A DNA stretch of 64,000 nt from the NCBI RefSeq assembly GCF_036373705.1, contig NC_089858.1:16985749-17049748 (forward strand), written 5' to 3'. The notes under the pieces are model-generated. The model ran no database searches, was not told the DNA's origin, and saw nothing but the letters and a program-made list of their open reading frames with translations. The stretch is from Amia ocellicauda (Eukaryota; Chordata; Actinopteri; Amiiformes; Amiidae). The position numbers were made by a program, and so were the translations under genes. This document shows, piece by piece, positions 1-16,424 of this stretch (within the stretch, counting starts at the first letter, position 1; the number at the start of each line of letters is the position of its first letter).

Positions 1-468
1 ATGTTCATATTTCAAACAGAAATTTAGTTTATTGGAAGCAACTAGTAACACTAAACTTATTTAAACTTTGATCAAAAAGCAACAGCAATTTGAGACAGAA
101 AAATGTGTCGCTAAGCCAAAAGTGCACAAGTAAGCACATTTTCTCTCAGCACAATTTTCCACATGATCTGTAGGAATAGTGAGAATAATTTATTTGAAAG
201 CCCAGCTAACCTCTAAGGTCAAAACTTTTTTTCCCACCCCCAACAAAAGGACGGCAAAGACTTTTGTTTCTGAAAACCTTTGTGCTGGTGTTGGCAGTAA
301 CTGCATTATTTTTTTTATGCTAATTTGTCCCTTACGAATTACTGCTCAAGGCCACTTCTATTAGAAATGTCATAGTTTACACTTTGACTCCTTTCCACAT
401 GCTCCTCCAGCCATTTAGATTAATGGCCACAGCCCAAGCCAGGAGGGAACACCAGGAAACACACTCAC

Positions 469-1263
469 CGCTTCCTGTCCCTGCATCCTGACACGGAAGA
501 GTTTGACGGGCCGCGACCCCAGGTAGCGAGTCCGCGTGTCAGACAGGTCTCCGGTCACCGGGTCCAGCACGGTCCGCAGCAACACACCGTTCTGCGGAGA
601 GAGGGTGAGTCAAGTTTGGATTTCTCAATGGAGATCTTGGCTCATTTTGCTGGTGGCATTCTCAATGAGATTTTAGATTTATGTCTTTCCTTCTTAATTT
701 AATGGAAAAAAAAAAAAAAAAAGCAAAACACTGGTTGAATCACTGTATTGAACCTCTTCTGTTTCTGTAGATTTCTATACCCTCCAGGGAAACCATGACA
801 AAGAGTTTACAAACGGTCCTTTATGCTGACCAAGTGCAGCATGGAGGGGAAACGGGGAGACAGAAAGACAGGCACACAGAGCTCTCTGTCAGACAAGGCT
901 GCCGGGCTGAAGAAACTCTCACACCAGAACCTGTGGAATGCATGTGAGCTTCTTCCCAGGACCCGCTGTGGCTCCCTGCACCCATGACTCTCCATGAACA
1001 ATCAAGGCCTTCTGAGGGCAAGAGGCTGCTGCAGACATGCACACGGCCTCACACACACTGACCTGCAGGCCGATGTTGAGATAGAGGAAGCCGATGGAGC
1101 CCTTCTCCCCCAGCTCGTCCTGCTTCTCCACGCCGCCCATCTCCACGATGCACAGAGACTCGGGTTGGGCCGGCAGCGCCTGCATGCTGAGGGGCTGCAG
1201 ACAATCCTGTACATGGAGAGGGAGAGAAAGGGGGGTTACCACCAACGGCCTGGGCCCTATTGT

Positions 1264-1307
<44 letters not shown>

Positions 1308-4300
1308 GCAGTTTCAGAGGAGAGATAGAGAGGGAGGGAGAGTATCCGAGTCTAACCGAGGGGTCGAGGGAGATGATCCTGACTGTGTTGTCCACCAACC
1401 CCACGGCCAGGAAGCGAGAGCGCTGCTCCCCGGGCGGCACGTTGGCCAGGCTCATGCACACCACGTCCGCCGACATCTCCTTCCGCTCAGTGTACTCGTT
1501 TAGCTGGCCCGACTGCGGGGAGGGGAGGGAGAGGAGATGCGTTAAACCTCCTATTTCTGCCACACAAAACAATTAGATCTTGTTTTCATTCCCGCCCGAC
1601 GGTCAGTGCAGGGGCGCCTCAGTCTGTGAAGGCAGAGAGACGGGCTGTCTTACCGGGTCCATCTCGAAATAGACCAGCTCTCCGCCCGTCAGCGCGATGA
1701 CCACCTGCCTCTGGTTGACGGCACAGCGCACGATTGTCTTCTTGCCCGGGGTCTTCCACTCGTTCACACGCTTGTCTGCACGGATGTGCCGGATACCGTC
1801 AGGATAAACCTGGGGGAGGGGGGGTGGATAAAGAAAGAGACCGGTCAGAATCCCCTTTGGGATAGTGGAGTCTAAAGCACAAGACATCCGTGTCACAAAC
1901 CATGTCCATGGCTTATACGGTCTACTGCTAATGAGTAATCTCACTGGGCAGGAGGAGATTACTAAGGTCGGGGGAATGTATACAATCCAGCAGCCTCCAG
2001 AGTTAGAGCGTGTGTCCTGCTGTGGAAGTTTCCCATCTGTTTGTGTACAATTCATAAACACTGTAAATATGTACATGTATCCATGGAACAGCAGCGTGAA
2101 CAGTGCTAGCACGGGGGAGGGCAGGACTGGCAGGCCGCCAGCAGATGGAGGGACAGAATGACATTCCTGCAACAGACACAGGCGGGAGGAGTGGACGGAC
2201 CTGCACCAGCGCGTCCTCGCCCAGCAGGGAGCAGGACAGGGTGGGCGTGGTGCCCAGGAAGCCGGAGTCTGTCACTTCCTCCACAGTCTCCCCGATGGAC
2301 AGGACCAGGGTGGCGTTCACGAAGGACACGATGATGTACGCATCATACTCGTCTGCAGAGAGAGAGGGGGAGAGATCAGATCAGATCAGAGGCCAAGGCA
2401 CGTCTTGAACTCTAGGAAAGTTTTATCCAATACAAAATACTCAGAATGCTGGGGTGTTTTTCGGTTTGTTTGTTTAAACAGAGGAAGAGGGGGATGGTGG
2501 CAGAGGTACTTCAGAGGTTTCAGATACTGTTCTTTCTACAGGGGGCGGGGGGGATAAATTCCACCTTGAAGGAAACACCTTAGAATTCCATCACCAGTGA
2601 GGAAACGCATTGTATAGTGTGCCTCTCGCTTTTGGACAGTCTGGCCTTGGCAGGTTCATACAGTGATGGGAGATTTCCAATCCAGCCACACACACAGCTT
2701 ATCAACAGATCATCACTACACTCTGAGCTACCCAGCCTGGTCAGAGATTGAGTGTCTTCAGAGCAGCACTCAGAGAAGAGACATGAAATCCTCATCACAC
2801 CAGCGGGACTCTTCTCTGGCCATGGGACACGGCACTGTGGTGAAAAGCATAGTCTGTGCTGCCGACCCCCCTCTATGGAGATATACACCTAGAGGTCTAC
2901 TGTGCTGATATGTTACACACAGAGGGCCGTACAGAACTTGACTGTTTTGCGTGACAGAGTTGGGTTTAATTTCAGCCACTGTCACCACTATGCCAAGGCC
3001 GGAGACACACTTACCTTCGATGTGCCGCCGCACAGTCCACACAGCGTTGGGGTTACCGGGCAGCTCAGACACAGCCATCTCTGACACCTGCAGGTGGAGT
3101 GGGGGAGGGGGAGAGAGAGCTCAGACAGACAGCCATGGTCTAATCAGCCACTGCGGCTACAGTGCAGGGCTAGAGAGAGGAGCCGGGGTATACATAGTAT
3201 TTACACACTCTTGAACAGTTTAAAAAATGTAATTTCATGTCTCTCTCCACAGGTAGGTCCAACAGCTGCATAGATACTGGTAAGACTATATGCAAACACC
3301 AAGTGCTTTATTTATACACTATCACAGAGAAAGTATTGTACCCTCCTTTACACTAAAGCTAAAACATCACATTGCCCAGACTTTGAGGAGGGGAAATAAA
3401 ATACAGTTAAACCAGCTGACTAGGCTACAGCAGAATCCGGGTCCTATGTTGGAATCCCACCCCCCAAGGACAGCAGCAGCAGGACCCCATTCCACGTACC
3501 TCCAACCCATGTCTCAGCACCCTGAGAGTAGACTTGGGTCCCCGGCCACAGGCCACATACAGCTGGGGCGTGTCCTCATTAGCCAGGTCAGCAATCTGCA
3601 GGGGAGACGGCAGTCAGCAAGTGGGGCAGGGCCAGAACACAATACTACACACCGCAACACACAGACCACACAGCCCCGACACTCACTGCTGGGTCTGAAG
3701 AACCACAGCGCCGCAGGATTAATATGTAACCCCCATTACAGTAGGTTCAATATTTTCAATGAACATTAGGATTCAATTAAGAGAGTCCTGGAGATAAACA
3801 CATACACACCCTCTCAAGCCCCCACTCGAGACCCACACAGTCTCAACCCACAGACCCACCTGGCAGGACATGATGGGCGACAGGCTCTCCTGCTCGTCCA
3901 CCAGAACCAGGTTCTTCAGCGGCCGCGGCTGGAAGAAGAAGGTGTCGCCTTCCTCCAGGGGCATCGCGGACGAGAACTCGGGCTCCTCGTCATCGTCGCC
4001 CAGGTGAGCGATCTGGTACAGGTAGCTGAGAGGGGGAGGGACAAGCACAACATGAGCGAGGGAGAGGCTGAGAGTGACGGACAGAGACGGGGACGGGTTG
4101 AGAGGGAGGGAGACCGCAGCGAAGGCGGCGCACTATGGACTCACTGGTTGCCGAATTCCGAGGCGACGAACAGGAAGCCGGTCTTCAGAACGCACATGGC
4201 TGTCGCCACAGGGATGGTATCAAAATACTTCAACCGGATCTCTGTCACCTAGGAGGGGTGGGCGGGGAGAGAGTGCGAGACAAAAGGTGTGAGGCAGGAG

Positions 4301-7300
4301 GGACACGCGTACATGAGAAGGACAAGCTCTTAAATTAATTGCAGGGAGAACACCACTACCACCAGAGAGACTTGGGTCAAGAGTCAGCAGCCATCTTCAC
4401 TGCTTGAGTGGCACGGAGGCAAAGGCCACTTGAAGTGTTACACGTTTCTCCCACTTGTCAATGTGACAGCACAGCTGGGATGGGATTGTATGCACTGTAG
4501 CGCACTACTGAAAGGAAGCCAGTAGACATGTTTAGTCTGCGGAGGACATCTGCACTACCAGAAGAGTGTGTGTCCATTTATGGGGCTGAGATCAGAGAGT
4601 TAAACATATCTCCAGTGCTATGTCAGAGAAGAGACATGAGAAAATTCATCACTTCCACAGCCACCCAGGAACTACCACTGCAGGGGTCAATACATGGCTC
4701 CTTACCATCTCCTCGTCCGTCTCCAGCGTGACCTTGAAGATGTCGCCCTGCTCTGTCTGCGCTAAGAAGAAGAACATGGACTTGGTCTTGTGCGTGGCTG
4801 AGCAGACGAAGATCATCCCTCGCTCTGGGTCATCCAGGTCATTCTGCATGGACGGACAGAAAGAATCAATTCAGATGTGGCCAATTCCCAATTTCCAACC
4901 AACTTACAACTCCTTTCACAGCACAAGCAACACCAGCCACCCCCTTCCTCACTCACCCTCCTGCGTGGGATGGGGCACCGAATGTCAGGCTGGTCTCCAA
5001 AATTCTTGTAGGTGATGTAATTCTCCGAGCAGATGAGGACTCCGCTGGGCCCATCAGAGCCCCCAGGCACTGAGAGGAGACGGAGAGAGAGGAGGGGAGT
5101 GAGTACATCTGCACGTACAGAGACACACTCCATGGACTGATTGCATAAATGTAACTGATGGACTAAAGTCCTGTATCCCCTGGGTCCTGACCTAGCGCCG
5201 ACACCGCCCGTGACATAGTCTGAATTTATTCATTCATCCCCACTTGGCACTCTGCAGCACAGGGAGCAGATCCAGAGCGTGAGAGGCCCAAGTATCCCAA
5301 AATAACCCTCAATGCACAAGGCTTTCACACAGAGAACAAAGGGCTGTGGGGGAAGAACTCCCACGGGTTCAGGAGTGCTCTGTGGATGAGCTGGGCTGAA
5401 AGACGCCACAGAGCTGGAATGCAGCACAAAACTAAGACCACCAGTAAAAGGTCTGCCAGGGCACTGGTCTTTGCACAGTAACAGACACACTGTATGACTC
5501 ACCAGTGATGAGGAAGTTGCCGTGCTCCTCTAGGGCCTCGCTGTATTTGCGCACCACGTGGTTCAGACCCAGGTCCAGCTCATAGAACGTCAGAGTCTGT
5601 TGGGTGTTAGCTGCAGCCTCCCCCGTCGGGTCGTTGTCCGCCTCCTGCACACACGTGGGGATAGAGGCACAGTGTTAGAGGCAGATAGAGGGGAAGGAAC
5701 ATCAGAAGGTGGCGGGTGGGTTCTCAATTACTGGAGTTTGAATAATACTTGTGTATTTGAGAACATGCTTATTTATATAAATGTTCCCCAATTCAGTTCA
5801 TACAAGAGATTGCAATGCATGAAAACACAATCAAATCAGGCCGCTATGGCAAAGGTAGTCTAACACACAGCACTGAAAGAACGGTGTAGGACAGACAGAG
5901 CAGAGATGCACACACGGGCCAGGTTACTGACGGGAGCCCGTGTGGCTGCAGTGCCTGGTCAGAGAGTGAGAGTGTCTTCAGAGCTGCGCTCAGAGAAGAG
6001 ACATGTCATCATCATCATCATCATCAGGCCTCCGTGGTCTGATTTACAACACTGAAATACCCCCGGAAGGCAACATCAGTCAGTGTGTCCACTCTGCTGT
6101 ATTAAAGTGGCTTACTCAGCTGTACCCAGCGCTACCCTCCTGCCTCCTCCCCCAACGCACCTCGTAGTCCATCTCCAGGCAGGCGAACATGGGGTTCTCA
6201 AAGCCCACGTCCACGCCCACCACGTGGTACACCAGCGTGTTGGCCTTGTGTGCCTCCAGGGGAGAGGAGATGGTCAGACGTGCCGCCGCATCTCTGTTCA
6301 GGATGTACACCAGCTTCTGCTTCTCAATCGCACCTGTGGCGAGGGGGAGGGAGAGCAGTTAAAAGAAAGAACCTAGGACTTGAGTGTCTATTAACACAGT
6401 GACCCTCTGCGGCCGGGCTGTGGTCAGTTTTTCAAAACCCTCTTCATGGTGAATAGATCAGAGAAGAGACATGTGAAACTCATCATATCCACAGCTCTGG
6501 CTCGGATGTGCCCTCAGCACATTCATTTACAGGACCCCCGCCCACTGTCAGTGATCCCTGGAGCCACAATACACCCCAAATCCACCGCCCTGACTGCACA
6601 AACACACACAAATGCACGCCAACACATCGACGTAAACAATTCTACGGTTCTCACCAATATTGGGAAATAGAAAAACATGCTATTAAAAACACTGCAAGGT
6701 CGACACTACAGGCACCGAGGTACAACTTTTCATTCAGTTACACCCCAAATCCACCGCCCTGCCAGCGTTTCTCACCAATCATGACAGCACGGCCCTTGGG
6801 GTCGACGGCAAGGAACTGCCCAGGGACGATGCGTCGGCATCCACTCTTGCCGAACGTCTCCTGGTGCACCTTCTCAAACTGGTTCTTGGAGGGCTGGTAC
6901 TCCAGGATCACGATGCGGCCCGAGTCGCTGCCCACCACAATGTAATCTGCAAATACACCACAGCGTCACCCACCACTGAACCCCCCAAAATCACATTTCC
7001 TTTAATATCCCCTTGTTTATTTTATTTATTCTAGCTTAGCTCCTTCCCAAAATATTTGATGTCATAAATCACATACAGACATAGACTACAGTCACCCCTA
7101 CTTACACCCCCCACCGCAAACACAAAACATTGCTCTGAACTATGACCTTTGGTGCCCCCTGTGAGCCGGAAGGCCATGAGCGAGCGCACGATGCCGAACA
7201 CCTCCATCGTCAGCAACGTGTGCACCTTCCCCGTGTTGGCATCGGGGCGCAGCAGCTCCAGGATCTTCCCCCGGGATACAACGATCTCCTGCTGCTTGGT

Positions 7301-7511
7301 TCCTATTCACAACAGGAGGGAGAGAGAGAAAGAGGTTCAGGAAATCCAAAACATCAACCCGGAAAACCACTGAGTAACAGAACAGGGAGAGGGAATCATG
7401 TGCCTTTTCCAAGCCGGAAGCCCCAGAGCGCAGGGACGTACCAGAGAAATTCCCATGGATGGCGTGCGAGATGCCAGTGGCACGCTGTAACGTCAGGTTG
7501 TACAGGAACAT
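469..7511 (-). CDS. sf3b3: Splicing factor 3b subunit 3 (SF3b130), 5' two thirds, C-terminus beyond left edge
   Basis: Core subunit of the SF3b complex of the U2 snRNP, acting in branch-point recognition in the nucleus; a relative of DDB1 and CPSF160 built of WD40-like beta-propellers. Coding exons, in transcription order: 7511-7442, 7302-7147, 6946-6776, 6333-6161, 5644-5503, 5069-4957, 4843-4706, 4248-4145, 4025-3860, 3595-3500, 3087-3015, 2352-2201, 1809-1654, 1512-1357, 1206-1063, 591-469. They total 2133 nt (711 codons) with every junction in frame; the human protein has about 1217 residues, so the last ~500 lie off the window. The start [15 protein letters not shown] and blocks such as [20 protein letters not shown] and [20 protein letters not shown] are almost identical to human SF3B3. 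All donors are GT; the one at 1356 is GTTAGA. Five introns carry SNORD111-type snoRNAs. COG4 starts divergently upstream. Confidence 0.97.
1265..1302. repeat. (CA)n microsatellite, SF3B3 intron
   Basis: About 19 CA units on the plus strand, i.e. GU repeats in the SF3B3 transcript, in the intron 1207-1356. Confidence 0.95.
2735..2805 (-). ncRNA. snord111: Box C/D snoRNA, SNORD111-type, copy 1 (SF3B3 intron)
   Basis: Lies in the intron 2353-3014. On the minus strand: C box GTGATGA at 2798-2792, guide UUCAUGUCUCUUC at about 2786-2774, D' box CTGA at 2773-2770, D box CTGA at 2744-2741. A closing stem pairs CTGG (2803-2800) with CCAG (2740-2737). The guide is complementary to the 28S rRNA segment GAAGAGACAUGA; the D'+5 rule puts 2'-O-methylation on the fourth base, a G. 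Human SF3B3 introns host SNORD111 and SNORD111B, so host and guide agree. Confidence 0.85.
4582..4664 (-). ncRNA. snord111: Box C/D snoRNA, SNORD111-type, copy 2 (SF3B3 intron)
   Basis: Lies in the intron 4249-4705. C box GTGATGA at 4652-4646, the same CAUGUCUCUUC guide at about 4639-4627, D' CTGA at 4626-4623, D box CTGA at 4595-4592. Its sequence outside guide and boxes differs from the other copies. The closing stem is weaker: GGCTG near 4664 with CAGCC near 4584, separated from the boxes by several bases. Expression is therefore less certain than for copies 1, 4 and 5. Confidence 0.65.
5952..6030 (-). ncRNA. snord111: Box C/D snoRNA, SNORD111-type, copy 3, with expanded C-box repeat (SF3B3 intron)
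   Basis: Lies in the intron 5645-6160. The C box sits in a (TGA)n run on the minus strand (6026-6006), followed by the guide CAUGUCUCUUC (about 6005-5994), D' CTGA (5993-5990) and D CTGA (5962-5959). Ends can pair through GGCCT near 6030 and CCAGGC near 5953. The D'-D interval closely resembles copies 1 and 5. The TGATGA repeats make the true C box ambiguous and change its spacing to the guide. Confidence 0.7.
6415..6496 (-). ncRNA. snord111: Box C/D snoRNA, SNORD111-type, copy 4 (SF3B3 intron)
   Basis: Lies in the intron 6334-6775. C box ATGATGA at 6486-6480, guide CAUGUCUCUUC at about 6474-6462, D' CTGA at 6461-6458, D box CTGA at 6427-6424. A seven-pair closing stem joins GCTGTGG (6495-6489) to CCACAGC (6423-6417), the best stem of the set. 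The D'-D interval differs completely from copies 1, 3 and 5, while the guide is conserved. Confidence 0.82.
6571..6761. repeat. 147-bp copied segment bracketed by 22-bp direct repeats
   Basis: Identical 22-base direct repeats at 6571-6592 and 6740-6761 (starting ACACCCCAAATCC) flank a 147-base segment, 6593-6739. That segment is nearly identical to 8252-8400 near the SF3B3 promoter. The arrangement looks like an insertion with a target-site duplication, but a local duplication could also produce it. Confidence 0.7.
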
Positions 7512-7531
7512 GACAGCAGCCTCTCAGCCTC
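7512..7531 (-). other. sf3b3: SF3B3 5' UTR in the ATG exon
   Basis: On the minus strand a TGTCCAG acceptor precedes GAGGCTGAGAGGC and then the ATG at 7511-7509, so the start exon begins near 7531 and at least one noncoding exon lies upstream. A candidate donor for that exon (ATATCG followed by GTGAGAAC) is at about 8315/8313. The noncoding exon itself is not proven. A short ACAGGG tandem repeat at 7534-7558 abuts the acceptor. Confidence 0.55.
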
Positions 7532-7747
7532 CTGGACAGGGACAGGGACAGGGACAGAAACCAGCAACTGCAGAGAAACGGAGGGCGAAGAAGAGAGATC
7601 AGTCACTGTACTGGGGCTATTCCATATACTCGAGGAGTGAGTGAGACTGTTCTATAGGTGATCACTGTGTGTAGCAGTGCAAAAAACATACCCCCCGCCA
7701 GCCCAAATACACACAGCAAATCAACAGATTACTACAATGAGCTCCCC

Positions 7748-7821
7748 AGCCTGGTCAGAGACTGAGTGTGTCTTCAGAGCAGCGCTCAGAGAAGAGACAT
7801 GAAATCCTCATCACACCAGCG
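7748..7821 (-). ncRNA. snord111: Box C/D snoRNA, SNORD111-type, copy 5 (SF3B3 first intron)
   Basis: Lies upstream of the ATG exon, in what should be the first intron. C box GTGATGA at 7814-7808, guide UUCAUGUCUCUUC at about 7802-7790, D' CTGA at 7789-7786, D box CTGA at 7758-7755, closing stem CTGG (7819-7816) with CCAG (7754-7751). Nearly identical to copy 1, and the similarity continues into flanking intron sequence, so the two arose by duplication of a larger piece. Confidence 0.83.
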
Positions 7822-8251
7822 GGACTCTTCTCTGGCCATGGGACACGCACTGTGGCGAAAAGCATATTCAGTACCGCCCCCTTCTACGGAGATACAAACC
7901 TAGATGCCTACTGTGCCGATGATACACTGTGCAGAGGCCCGTACAGGACTTGATTTTTGTTTTGCAAACACGAACAAACCACCGCGACATAAGAGCTTTT
8001 ACACACTTGTCTGAAAACGTGTGCGGAGATCATATCCGCCATCTATATTCCCACACAACTGTGCACAGCTTTTACTGCACTTCTCTAAGTGTGTTTAGTC
8101 TGCACAGATCGGGCCCATGCTCCAACAGTGTGATTGTAAGGGATGAATCAACTTAATTTCCTCTGAAGAAGAGACTCATTTCAACTCCACCAGTGCAGAC
8201 AGACGGAAGTAGGTCCTGAATTTAATAAAAGCTTAAAATCGTCTTGAATTG

Positions 8252-8400
8252 ACTGCACAAACACACAAAAATGCACGCCAACACATCGACGTAAACAATT
8301 CTACGGTTCTCACCGATATTGGGAAATAGAAAAACATGCTATTAAAAACACTGCAAGGTCGACACTACAGGCACTGAGGTACAACTTTTCATTCAGTTAC
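8252..8400. repeat. Second copy of the 147-bp segment, next to the SF3B3 5' end
   Basis: Differs from 6593-6739 by only a few bases. It has no matching flanking repeats, so it is more likely the source or an independent copy. On the minus strand it contains a donor-like ATATCG/GTGAGAAC, so part of it may be SF3B3 noncoding exon 1. Confidence 0.65.
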
Positions 8401-9054
8401 CGACCCCGGGTCCCCACTAAATACCGCCATCGCCACTCTTACTCGGTCGATATTGTATATACCGTGCCGGGTGCGACGCACAGTCGGGCGGTAAGTATGT
8501 ATTACCGGTACAGCAGGACGGATGGTGTTGATATTTACAAGATTTCGTTCTATAACAATGCCATTTCCCCCTCTTTCGGTTGCAGCCAGATCGTAGCGCC
8601 GCCGCTTTCGGGTCCTTTCTCTGGATACACGCACGCTGCCGCTTGAGGTGACCTACAAAGTGCCTGATCACAGACAAAAACAAGTTGATTAAATGAATCG
8701 CTAGTATAAAACTATTACCATATCTTATTCATACAAACTCACATATATATATCGATATATACGTGTATATATAGTTTACTTACCTTAGGTAATCGCGTTT
8801 ATATTTATAAATATGTTTAAGCTTCCTTTTCTAGATCCTCATCATTTATTAACTGTTCTTCTATGCAGCCTCTACTGAAGATATGTTTGATTTCTCTTGT
8901 ATTTTCATATCTCAAAATGTCAAAATTAAATAAACGGCGGCAATCGAGAGAGCAAGGGTCCTTGAAGGTCCTGCGTCGGGTTTCAATTACGACTCTCTGA
9001 CGAATGAGAAATAATGGCGGAAGTGACGACGTTTGTGTTTGTGTGGTGCGGAAG
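8401..9054. promoter_or_regulatory. Shared head-to-head promoter region of SF3B3 and COG4
   Basis: Separates the divergent genes SF3B3 and COG4, as in mammals. It holds a GC-rich part (8401-8660), an AT-rich part (8690-8830) and the COG4 leader. Plus-strand splice-like signals frame 8491-8585 (GTAAGT donor; pyrimidine-rich TTGCAG acceptor). Transcription start sites were not located. Confidence 0.55.

Positions 9055-16424
<7,370 letters not shown>

Follow-up and report, generated by a model that had tools for sequence, protein, structure and literature searches.

Five SNORD111-type box C/D snoRNA units in five introns of SF3B3 of Amia ocellicauda

The SF3B3 locus and its intronic box C/D units

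The analysed stretch of DNA (the window, 64 kb) harbours twelve coding exons of SF3B3 (E2-E13; 2201..7531, minus strand), every one of which possesses an AG acceptor and a GT donor. Exons E2-E7 locate at 7442-7531, 7147-7302, 6776-6946, 6161-6333, 5503-5644 and 4957-5069, and exons E8-E13 at 4706-4843, 4145-4248, 3860-4025, 3500-3595, 3015-3087 and 2201-2352. SF3B3 was identified as host gene by its spliced translation of 518 amino acids, residues 1-518 of which align with residues 1-518 of SF3B3 chain 5o9z_w (1139.5 bits). The call of intron 1 rests on a 5' exon inferred from a single donor motif at 8783.

Five box C/D units were detected in sense orientation to SF3B3 (minus strand), one each in introns 1, 4, 5, 8 and 12. 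Copy 1 (2733..2806, minus strand) is located in intron 12, with the C box at 2798-2792, guide plus D' box at 2785-2770 and the D box ending at 2741. Intron 8 contains copy 2 (4582..4664, minus strand; C box 4652-4646, guide plus D' box 4638-4623, D box ending at 4592), intron 5 contains copy 3 (5951..6031, minus strand; C box within 6024-6006, guide plus D' box 6005-5990, D box ending at 5959), and intron 4 contains copy 4 (6415..6497, minus strand; C box 6486-6480, guide plus D' box 6473-6458, D box ending at 6424). Copy 5 (7747..7822, minus strand) resides in intron 1, with the start codon downstream, its C box at 7814-7808, guide plus D' box at 7801-7786 and the D box ending at 7755. Every copy has a C'-like box and, close to its two ends, exact matches to the C box (RUGAUGA) and the D box (CUGA). 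In copy 3, the C box belongs to an expanded run of trinucleotides in which RTGATGA matches five times in overlapping positions, with the final match adjoining the guide. A preliminary description of this DNA had placed minus-strand C/D units in five SF3B3 introns, and boxes, guide, splice sites and host protein alignment agree with this at all five intervals.

A terminal stem was predicted for each copy (-14.0, -14.7, -12.8, -20.5 and -14.2 kcal/mol for copies 1-5; flank duplex, without shuffle control), the strongest being that of copy 4 (-20.5 kcal/mol). Comparison of own with foreign stem arms proved non-discriminating, the 5' arm of copy 2 combined with the 3' arm of copy 4 yielding -16.3 versus -10.1 for own arms. 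Among whole-molecule folds compared to shuffled sequences (z of 0.22, -1.24, -0.04, -2.06 and 0.21 for copies 1-5), copy 4 alone stands out. Its distance to the 3' splice site is also short (81 nt), as opposed to 216-382 nt for copies 1, 2, 3 and 5, which thereby depart from the optimal C/D snoRNA position given in PMC8162545, about 50 nt ahead of the branch point. Based on its short distance to the splice site and its strongest predicted stem, copy 4 is predicted to yield its snoRNA with the highest efficiency.

Family assignment and the shared 28S guide

SNORD111 (Rfam RF00611) is the top-scoring Rfam family at all five places, and its gathering cut-off of 46 bits, a curation threshold and no biological feature, is reached by copy 2 alone (46.2 bits), with copies 4, 1, 5 and 3 scoring 36.4, 32.1, 32.1 and 29.8 bits, respectively. 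The covariance model supports the earlier assignment with respect to the best family, but passes only one of the five copies. At copy 1, SNORD110 ranks close behind SNORD111 (28.4 bits, E 0.019 vs 32.1 bits, E 0.016). The proposed SNORD111-type identity is upheld by best Rfam family, location in SF3B3 introns and pairing of the D' guide with 28S in all five copies.

The 16-nt guide plus D' box, CATGTCTCTTCTCTGA, is identical in all copies and has five exact matches in the 988-Mb genome, all of which represent the SF3B3 copies (reversed-pattern control: one match). With the 28S sequence of the same genome (an rDNA fragment and no intact rDNA unit; 773 nt of 28S scanned), the guide forms 14 bp in copy 2, 12 bp plus a G-U pair plus one further pair in copies 1 and 5, and 11 bp in copies 3 and 4; the pairing partner GAAGAGACAUGA accordingly matches copies 1, 2 and 5 over at least 12 bp and copies 3 and 4 over 11 bp. 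The previously noted complementarity between 28S and a common guide upstream of D' holds, with 11-14 Watson-Crick pairs depending on the copy. In all five copies, the 28S nucleotide facing guide position five, counted upstream from D', and hence predicted to be methylated, is a G. Judged from these pairings, the predicted methylation target of all five copies is very probably the G within TGTGAAGAGACAT, which we take to be human 28S position 3923, relying on the literature and on the human 28S sequence.

No sixth place within two substitutions of CATGTCTCTTCTCTGA was found in the 64-kb window, and a model built from the five copies detected no sixth one in the window or at loci L009 and L010, nor did Rfam at the latter two. 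The gene was also examined for a decayed copy, in particular around 8165, but an unfiltered scan of positions 1-9500 returned only the five above 5.0 bits. The whole-genome Rfam search for SNORD111, scoring 64 of 208,285 first-look candidates, listed seven places, four of which are SF3B3 copies (copy 3 was missed); at the three others (26.4-30.3 bits), the five-copy model gives no match and no guide is seen. The same genome-wide family search yielded below-cut-off matches in 9 out of 14 control genomes. Scanning of eight loci, drawn from 22 matches of a mis-spaced genome pattern, revealed a partial match (13.9 bits) to the model of the five at L002.

Constraint on guide and boxes

Across the five copies, 31 of 33 box and guide columns, picked by the analyst from known motifs, are invariant versus 4 of 24 other ungapped columns (Fisher p=1.6e-9). 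This points to constraint on each guide and bears out the earlier observation that guide and boxes were kept while the remainder diverged. Between copies 1, 3 and 5 on the one hand and copies 2 and 4 on the other, 31-33 of the 33 functional columns are identical, as compared to 26-46 % of the positions between them. A subgroup of copies 2 and 4, apparent from a local alignment (34/39), was rejected, as their spacers (11/27 identical) are no closer than those between groups.

The five units are best understood as paralogous SNORD111 box C/D genes which were copied within SF3B3 and guide one 28S 2'-O-methylation, with guide and boxes under selection (probability about 0.87). The snoRNAs would be freed from the SF3B3 introns, trimmed to ~70-80 nt and bound by the C/D proteins (SNU13/NOP58/NOP56/fibrillarin) predicted to associate with the trimmed RNAs, and all five would direct 2'-O-methylation of a single 28S guanosine (human Gm3923) via the guide upstream of D'. 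Selection would have held guide and boxes in every copy, with the remainder drifting.

An unlikely alternative, though one of some weight, is that the working snoRNAs are confined to one or two copies (e.g. 2 and 4), the rest being pseudogenes, recent or silent, that have not yet decayed. This would fit the position of copies 1 and 5 as the closest pair, the lowest Rfam scores falling on copies 1, 3 and 5, the expanded C-box repeat of copy 3 and the long distances of copies 1, 2, 3 and 5 to the 3' splice site. Copies 1 and 5, however, differ at none of the 33 functional columns and at only 2 of 71 sites in the snoRNA versus 21 of 160 aligned sites in the flanks (p=0.016), the differences in the snoRNA (two substitutions and one 2-nt indel) all locating outside boxes and guide. 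Likewise, copy 3 deviates from the other four at only 0-2 of the 33 functional columns, at two A/G-alternating positions, although its homology to the other copies is confined to the snoRNA part.

Conservation of copies 1 and 5 extends into their 5' flank, which shows no substitution in 26 aligned sites (flank conservation only p=0.049). Ten bp of this flank are perfectly complementary to the guide of the respective copy, which none of 2000 mononucleotide shuffles equalled. An anti-guide leader as functional element was rejected: among 6396 stretches of 40 nt in the window, 23 contain complements as good (some possibly these loci themselves), and folding of copies 1 and 5 together with the flank brings no improvement over shuffles (z of 0.12 and 0.33). 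A simpler explanation for the conservation is that part of the flank forms an extended terminal stem.

The preliminary description had further suggested a copy-specific second target recognized by the D-box guide. The D guides (10-13 nt) indeed vary from copy to copy, but not even the closely related copies 1 and 5 have conserved them, which leaves this suggestion unsupported. Their longest runs of Watson-Crick plus G-U pairs in the 773 nt of 28S amount to 7, 7, 9, 9 and 7 for copies 1-5 (without shuffle control), and the D-guide target search returned no match for the 28S motif and no rRNA, at Rfam thresholds, at the place of the 18S motif. According to PMC6124571, nt 2-12 of human SNORD111B are able to pair with SNORD68; this stretch is absent from the five copies, the 11-mer finding a best match of 8/11 in copies and flanks. 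It is thus improbable that the copies were kept for different second targets or for a regulatory pairing of this kind. With guide and boxes kept and the second guide free, only the D' guide is predicted to matter.

Gene conversion among copies could also account for guide identity without selection, and copies 1 and 5 do share an uninterrupted identity of up to 63 bp that extends past the snoRNA into the 5' flank. Conversion tracts would, however, bring the spacers along, so that the diverged spacers between copies 1, 3 and 5 and copies 2 and 4 speak against this process, which we consider an improbable source of the shared guide.

Copying within SF3B3 and relation to known SNORD111 genes

Copies 1 and 5 are embedded in homologous blocks (2682..2950 and 7698..7965, both minus strand; 234 identities, 23 mismatches, 23 gap columns), with homology reaching beyond the snoRNA of copy 1 by 145 bp on its 5' side and by 53 bp on its 3' side. 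A genome search with this block of ~270 bp found no third place except for the snoRNA part of copy 3. Copies 1 and 5 stem from block duplication of ~270 bp or more, and copies 2-4 presumably from older copying of intron segments, the flanks of which no longer align.

Intron 4 contains an insert of 146 bp (6593..6738, minus strand), apparently derived from intron 1 in the same orientation (donor segment 8250..8407, minus strand; 153 identities, 3 mismatches, 2 gaps) and devoid of a snoRNA. It is flanked by an exact, target-site-duplication-like direct repeat of 23 bp (6570..6592 and 6739..6761), and the intron-1/intron-4 sequence has genome matches in SF3B3 only. This recent-looking insertion is new here, hints at how copies may spread within the gene and renders intragenic snoRNA spread testable via near relatives. 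Flank-to-flank repeats of the snoRNA copies themselves are equalled by 27, 231, 8, 45 and 34 of 500 mononucleotide shuffles (copies 1-5), so that only copy 3 is a weak target-site-duplication candidate. We regard it as possible, yet doubtful, that SF3B3 in this lineage experienced recurrent intron-to-intron copy-paste of ~150-300-bp pieces in the same orientation with target-site duplications, the 146-bp insert being the freshest, the copy-1/copy-5 block older and the five SNORD111 the pieces kept by selection. If true, the long-assumed "cis-duplication" of snoRNAs would represent a concrete insertion mechanism rather than unequal crossing-over. Spread by snoRNA retroposition instead of DNA-level copying, to which the 23-bp repeat might be taken to testify, is highly improbable, given that the dispersed copies, A-tail (none behind the copies by eye) and, apart from the weak candidate at copy 3, target-site duplication of a snoRNA retroposon (snoRTE-like) were not found, that homology of copies 1 and 5 continues well beyond the snoRNA, that the 16-mer has no exact match outside SF3B3 and that the 146-bp insert lacks a snoRNA.

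The earlier statement that human SF3B3 hosts SNORD111 and SNORD111B is confirmed by PMC6124571, according to which the two occupy separate introns and lowering of SNORD111B cut methylation of 28S G3923. They resemble the five copies in host gene, location in different introns, 28S G3923 guide and box layout, but number only two. For chicken GGgCD58 (HBII-82/SNORD111B), PMC2653536 lists one isoform each in introns 3 and 6 of SF3B3; family, host, intragenic paralogs and 5' (D') guide are as in the present case, whereas two isoforms contrast with five copies and introns 3 and 6 have no obvious correspondence to the introns here. The later SnoBIRD study (PMC12309372) describes SF3B3 as C/D snoRNA host in fly, zebrafish, chicken and macaque, with numbers varying by species, the expressed vertebrate copies forming a single group; in chicken SF3B3, it adds one expressed C/D snoRNA as novel. 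The species-variable number of intronic snoRNAs is shared with the present case, section 27 of that study containing neither a zebrafish count nor a guide analysis. Among human C/D families with at least two expressed members, 59.5 % reside in one host gene, through recombination in cis and in different introns, as described in PMC8178906; the SF3B3 copies do not differ from these in kind, and add to them the trace left by an insertion from one intron into another. No account of SNORD111 copy number in fish was found in a search of literature listings.

The preliminary description had regarded this expansion as the strongest unexpected structure in the window. The five-copy expansion is real, but less unexpected than claimed in view of human SNORD111A/B, the two chicken isoforms, the species-variable number in SF3B3 and the usual occurrence of C/D families in one host. 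It is a further case of known intragenic C/D duplication in a known SNORD111 host. The effect of five copies is most likely redundancy or dosage for one site, the sequences being compatible with a dosage role. For ribosome biology, a five-copy SNORD111 is otherwise ordinary; with the same guide replicated five times by nature within a single transcript, however, the copies allow constraint to be read position by position.

SNORD111-type units in the introns of SF3B3

SF3B3 occupies the left end of the window on the minus strand, with 12 coding exons bordered by AG/GT at 2201–7531. The encoded 518-aa reading aligns over its full length to residues 1–518 of SF3B3 chain 5o9z_w, and the remaining part of the gene, up to the final ...RTRYAF, is located directly beyond the window (locus L009). 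The plus-strand neighbour COG4 (COG4 domain matches in two of three translated pieces) starts at ~9045 as taken from the reading frame. Both genes are arranged head to head with a short common upstream region (about 8783–9045), a layout also seen for human SF3B3 and COG4. Downstream of SF3B3, two UnaL2-like LINE 3' ends were observed (L010, 7523–7573 and 8082–8133; 34.9 and 40.6 bits, cut-off 55).

Five minus-strand box C/D units, all in the sense of SF3B3 and one per intron, locate to intron 12 (copy 1, 2733–2806, 382 nt to the 3' splice site), intron 8 (copy 2, 4582–4664, 333 nt), intron 5 (copy 3, 5951–6031, 307 nt), intron 4 (copy 4, 6415–6497, 81 nt) and intron 1 (copy 5, 7747–7822, 216 nt); this intron numbering takes the donor motif at 8783 as the end of the 5' exon. 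Each copy comprises a C box (RTGATGA), a 6–7-nt spacer (ambiguous in copy 3), guide and D' box (CATGTCTCTTCT-CTGA), an 8–11-nt spacer, a C' box (TGAAGA or TGGAGA), a further 10–13 nt and the D box (CTGA). The C box of copy 3 resides in an expanded trinucleotide run (6006–6024) reaching up to the guide and harbouring five overlapping RTGATGA matches, which makes both the 5' end of this copy and the choice of C box ambiguous. A terminal stem is predicted for all copies (-12.8 to -20.5 kcal/mol, strongest in copy 4), and in whole-molecule folds only copy 4 stands out (z -2.06). SNORD111 was the top-scoring Rfam family throughout, with 46.2 bits for copy 2 and 36.4, 32.1, 32.1 and 29.8 bits for copies 4, 1, 5 and 3, respectively. 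Copy 2 alone passed the curated cut-off (46 bits) and was the only one reported by a default Rfam scan of the whole window; SNORD110 came near SNORD111 at copy 1 (28.4 vs 32.1 bits). Judged from sequence, the five units very likely represent SNORD111 and function as guides.

Human SF3B3 hosts SNORD111A and B (PMC6124571), and two SNORD111-type snoRNAs are listed for the chicken gene (PMC2653536). The SnoBIRD authors name SF3B3 as a recurrent host with varying snoRNA number, including six C/D snoRNAs in fly, one novel expressed snoRNA in chicken and three predicted pseudogenes in macaque, the expressed vertebrate ones falling in one group (PMC12309372). Among human C/D families with at least two expressed members, 59.5 % reside wholly in one host gene, and such single-host families were put down to recombination in cis (PMC8178906). 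The five copies found here exceed the two named for human and the two listed for chicken in these papers; a description of five SNORD111 copies in one species was not found in the open-licence literature searched. The preliminary description of five such units in five SF3B3 introns is good and correct, with all boxes and the exact 16-mer (guide plus D' box) in 5/5 copies; snoRNA family, host and intragenic copies are already known.

Guide conservation and predicted targets

A locus elsewhere in the genome (L013) gives two adjacent matches to the LSU model of Rfam for eukaryotes (497.9 and 56.2 bits) and contains the 28S target stretch TGTGAAGAGACATGAGAGG at 2000–2018 on the minus strand. The guide of copy 2 pairs with this stretch over 14 bp, those of copies 1 and 5 over 12 bp plus a G-U plus 1, and those of copies 3 and 4 over 11 bp. 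The fifth nucleotide upstream of D' faces a G, which, from the literature and the human 28S sequence, we take to be the equivalent of human 28S G3923. Methylation of human G3923 is guided by SNORD111A/B and decreased by 71 % upon reduction of SNORD111B (PMC6124571). Partial 28S pieces were detected at L013 1536–2308 and L011 1501–1530 (the latter below the Rfam cut-off); searches of the assembly with a set of rRNA motifs revealed no intact rDNA unit, 28S or 18S.

The 64-kb window contains no further match to the 16-mer at up to 2 substitutions, and an exact search of the whole 988-Mb genome retrieved 5 matches, all of them copies 1–5 (reversed control, 1 match). When the bodies of the copies are aligned, boxes and guide span 33 columns, of which 31 are invariant and two alternate between A and G. 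Outside of these, 4 of 24 ungapped columns (31 with gapped ones included) are invariant; the Fisher p=1.6e-9 is descriptive, because the rows are relatives and the functional columns were picked from known motifs. Copies 1, 3 and 5 are clearly nearer one another in their spacers (1-3, 19/25; 1-5, 23/25; 3-5, 21/27), copies 2 and 4 show no such closeness (11/27), and between {1,3,5} and {2,4} spacer identity is 26–46 % vs 31–33 of 33 functional columns. Such divergence between intact boxes would be hard to obtain without selection on each copy.

Selection for dosage or for copy-specific second targets of the D-box guide had been suggested. The 10–13 nt upstream of the D box differ in every copy, and the closest pair (1 and 5), identical in 33/33 functional columns, differs solely outside of them. 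In an uncontrolled scan confined to 773 nt of 28S, the longest run of any D guide was at most 9 pairs including G-U, and the SNORD68-pairing stretch of human SNORD111B was matched in copies 1–5 by 8/11 at best. Within this scope, second targets are accordingly unsupported; dosage or redundancy would be a plausible role. The 5' flanks of copies 1 and 5 (2806–2831, 7823–7847) show no substitution between the two and include 10 nt complementary to the guide of the same copy. A special hairpin is not supported by the energetics, and an extended terminal stem would be a simpler reason.

Duplication and insertion within SF3B3

Homologous blocks surround copies 1 and 5 (2682–2950 vs 7698–7965; 234 identities, 23 mismatches, 23 gap columns). 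Apart from its own position, a 381-bp query around copy 1 matched just two places in the genome, the block of copy 5 and, in copy 3, the snoRNA portion; this block is a duplication within SF3B3 and no dispersed repeat. The snoRNAs differ at 2/71 aligned sites vs 21/160 in the outer flanks (p=0.016), and direct repeats were absent from the block edges. For copies 1–5, an equally good repeat between the flanks of the snoRNA arose in 27, 231, 8, 45 and 34 out of 500 shuffled sequences, respectively. The imperfect direct repeat around copy 3 (5835–5878 and 6023–6057), weakly above shuffles (8/500), is perhaps an old target duplication.

At 6593–6738, intron 4 contains 146 bp of intron-1 sequence (aligned block 8250–8407; 97 % identical, same orientation), bounded by an exact 23-bp direct repeat (6570–6592 and 6739–6761). 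This repeat is absent from intron 1, which is therefore the likely donor. The repeat pair was the sole match in 64 kb among exact repeats of at least 20 bp, 60–1000 bp apart, after simple-sequence filtering. In a genome search that leaves aside simple repeats and highly frequent words, a 186-bp query found only two places, introns 1 and 4. There is no snoRNA within the insert, and because flank repeats also arise in shuffles and are lacking at the block edges, this mechanism can only be proposed as source of the snoRNA copies. The insert itself shows copying of intron pieces between introns within SF3B3, and it is this intron-to-intron insertion that might interest the specialist.
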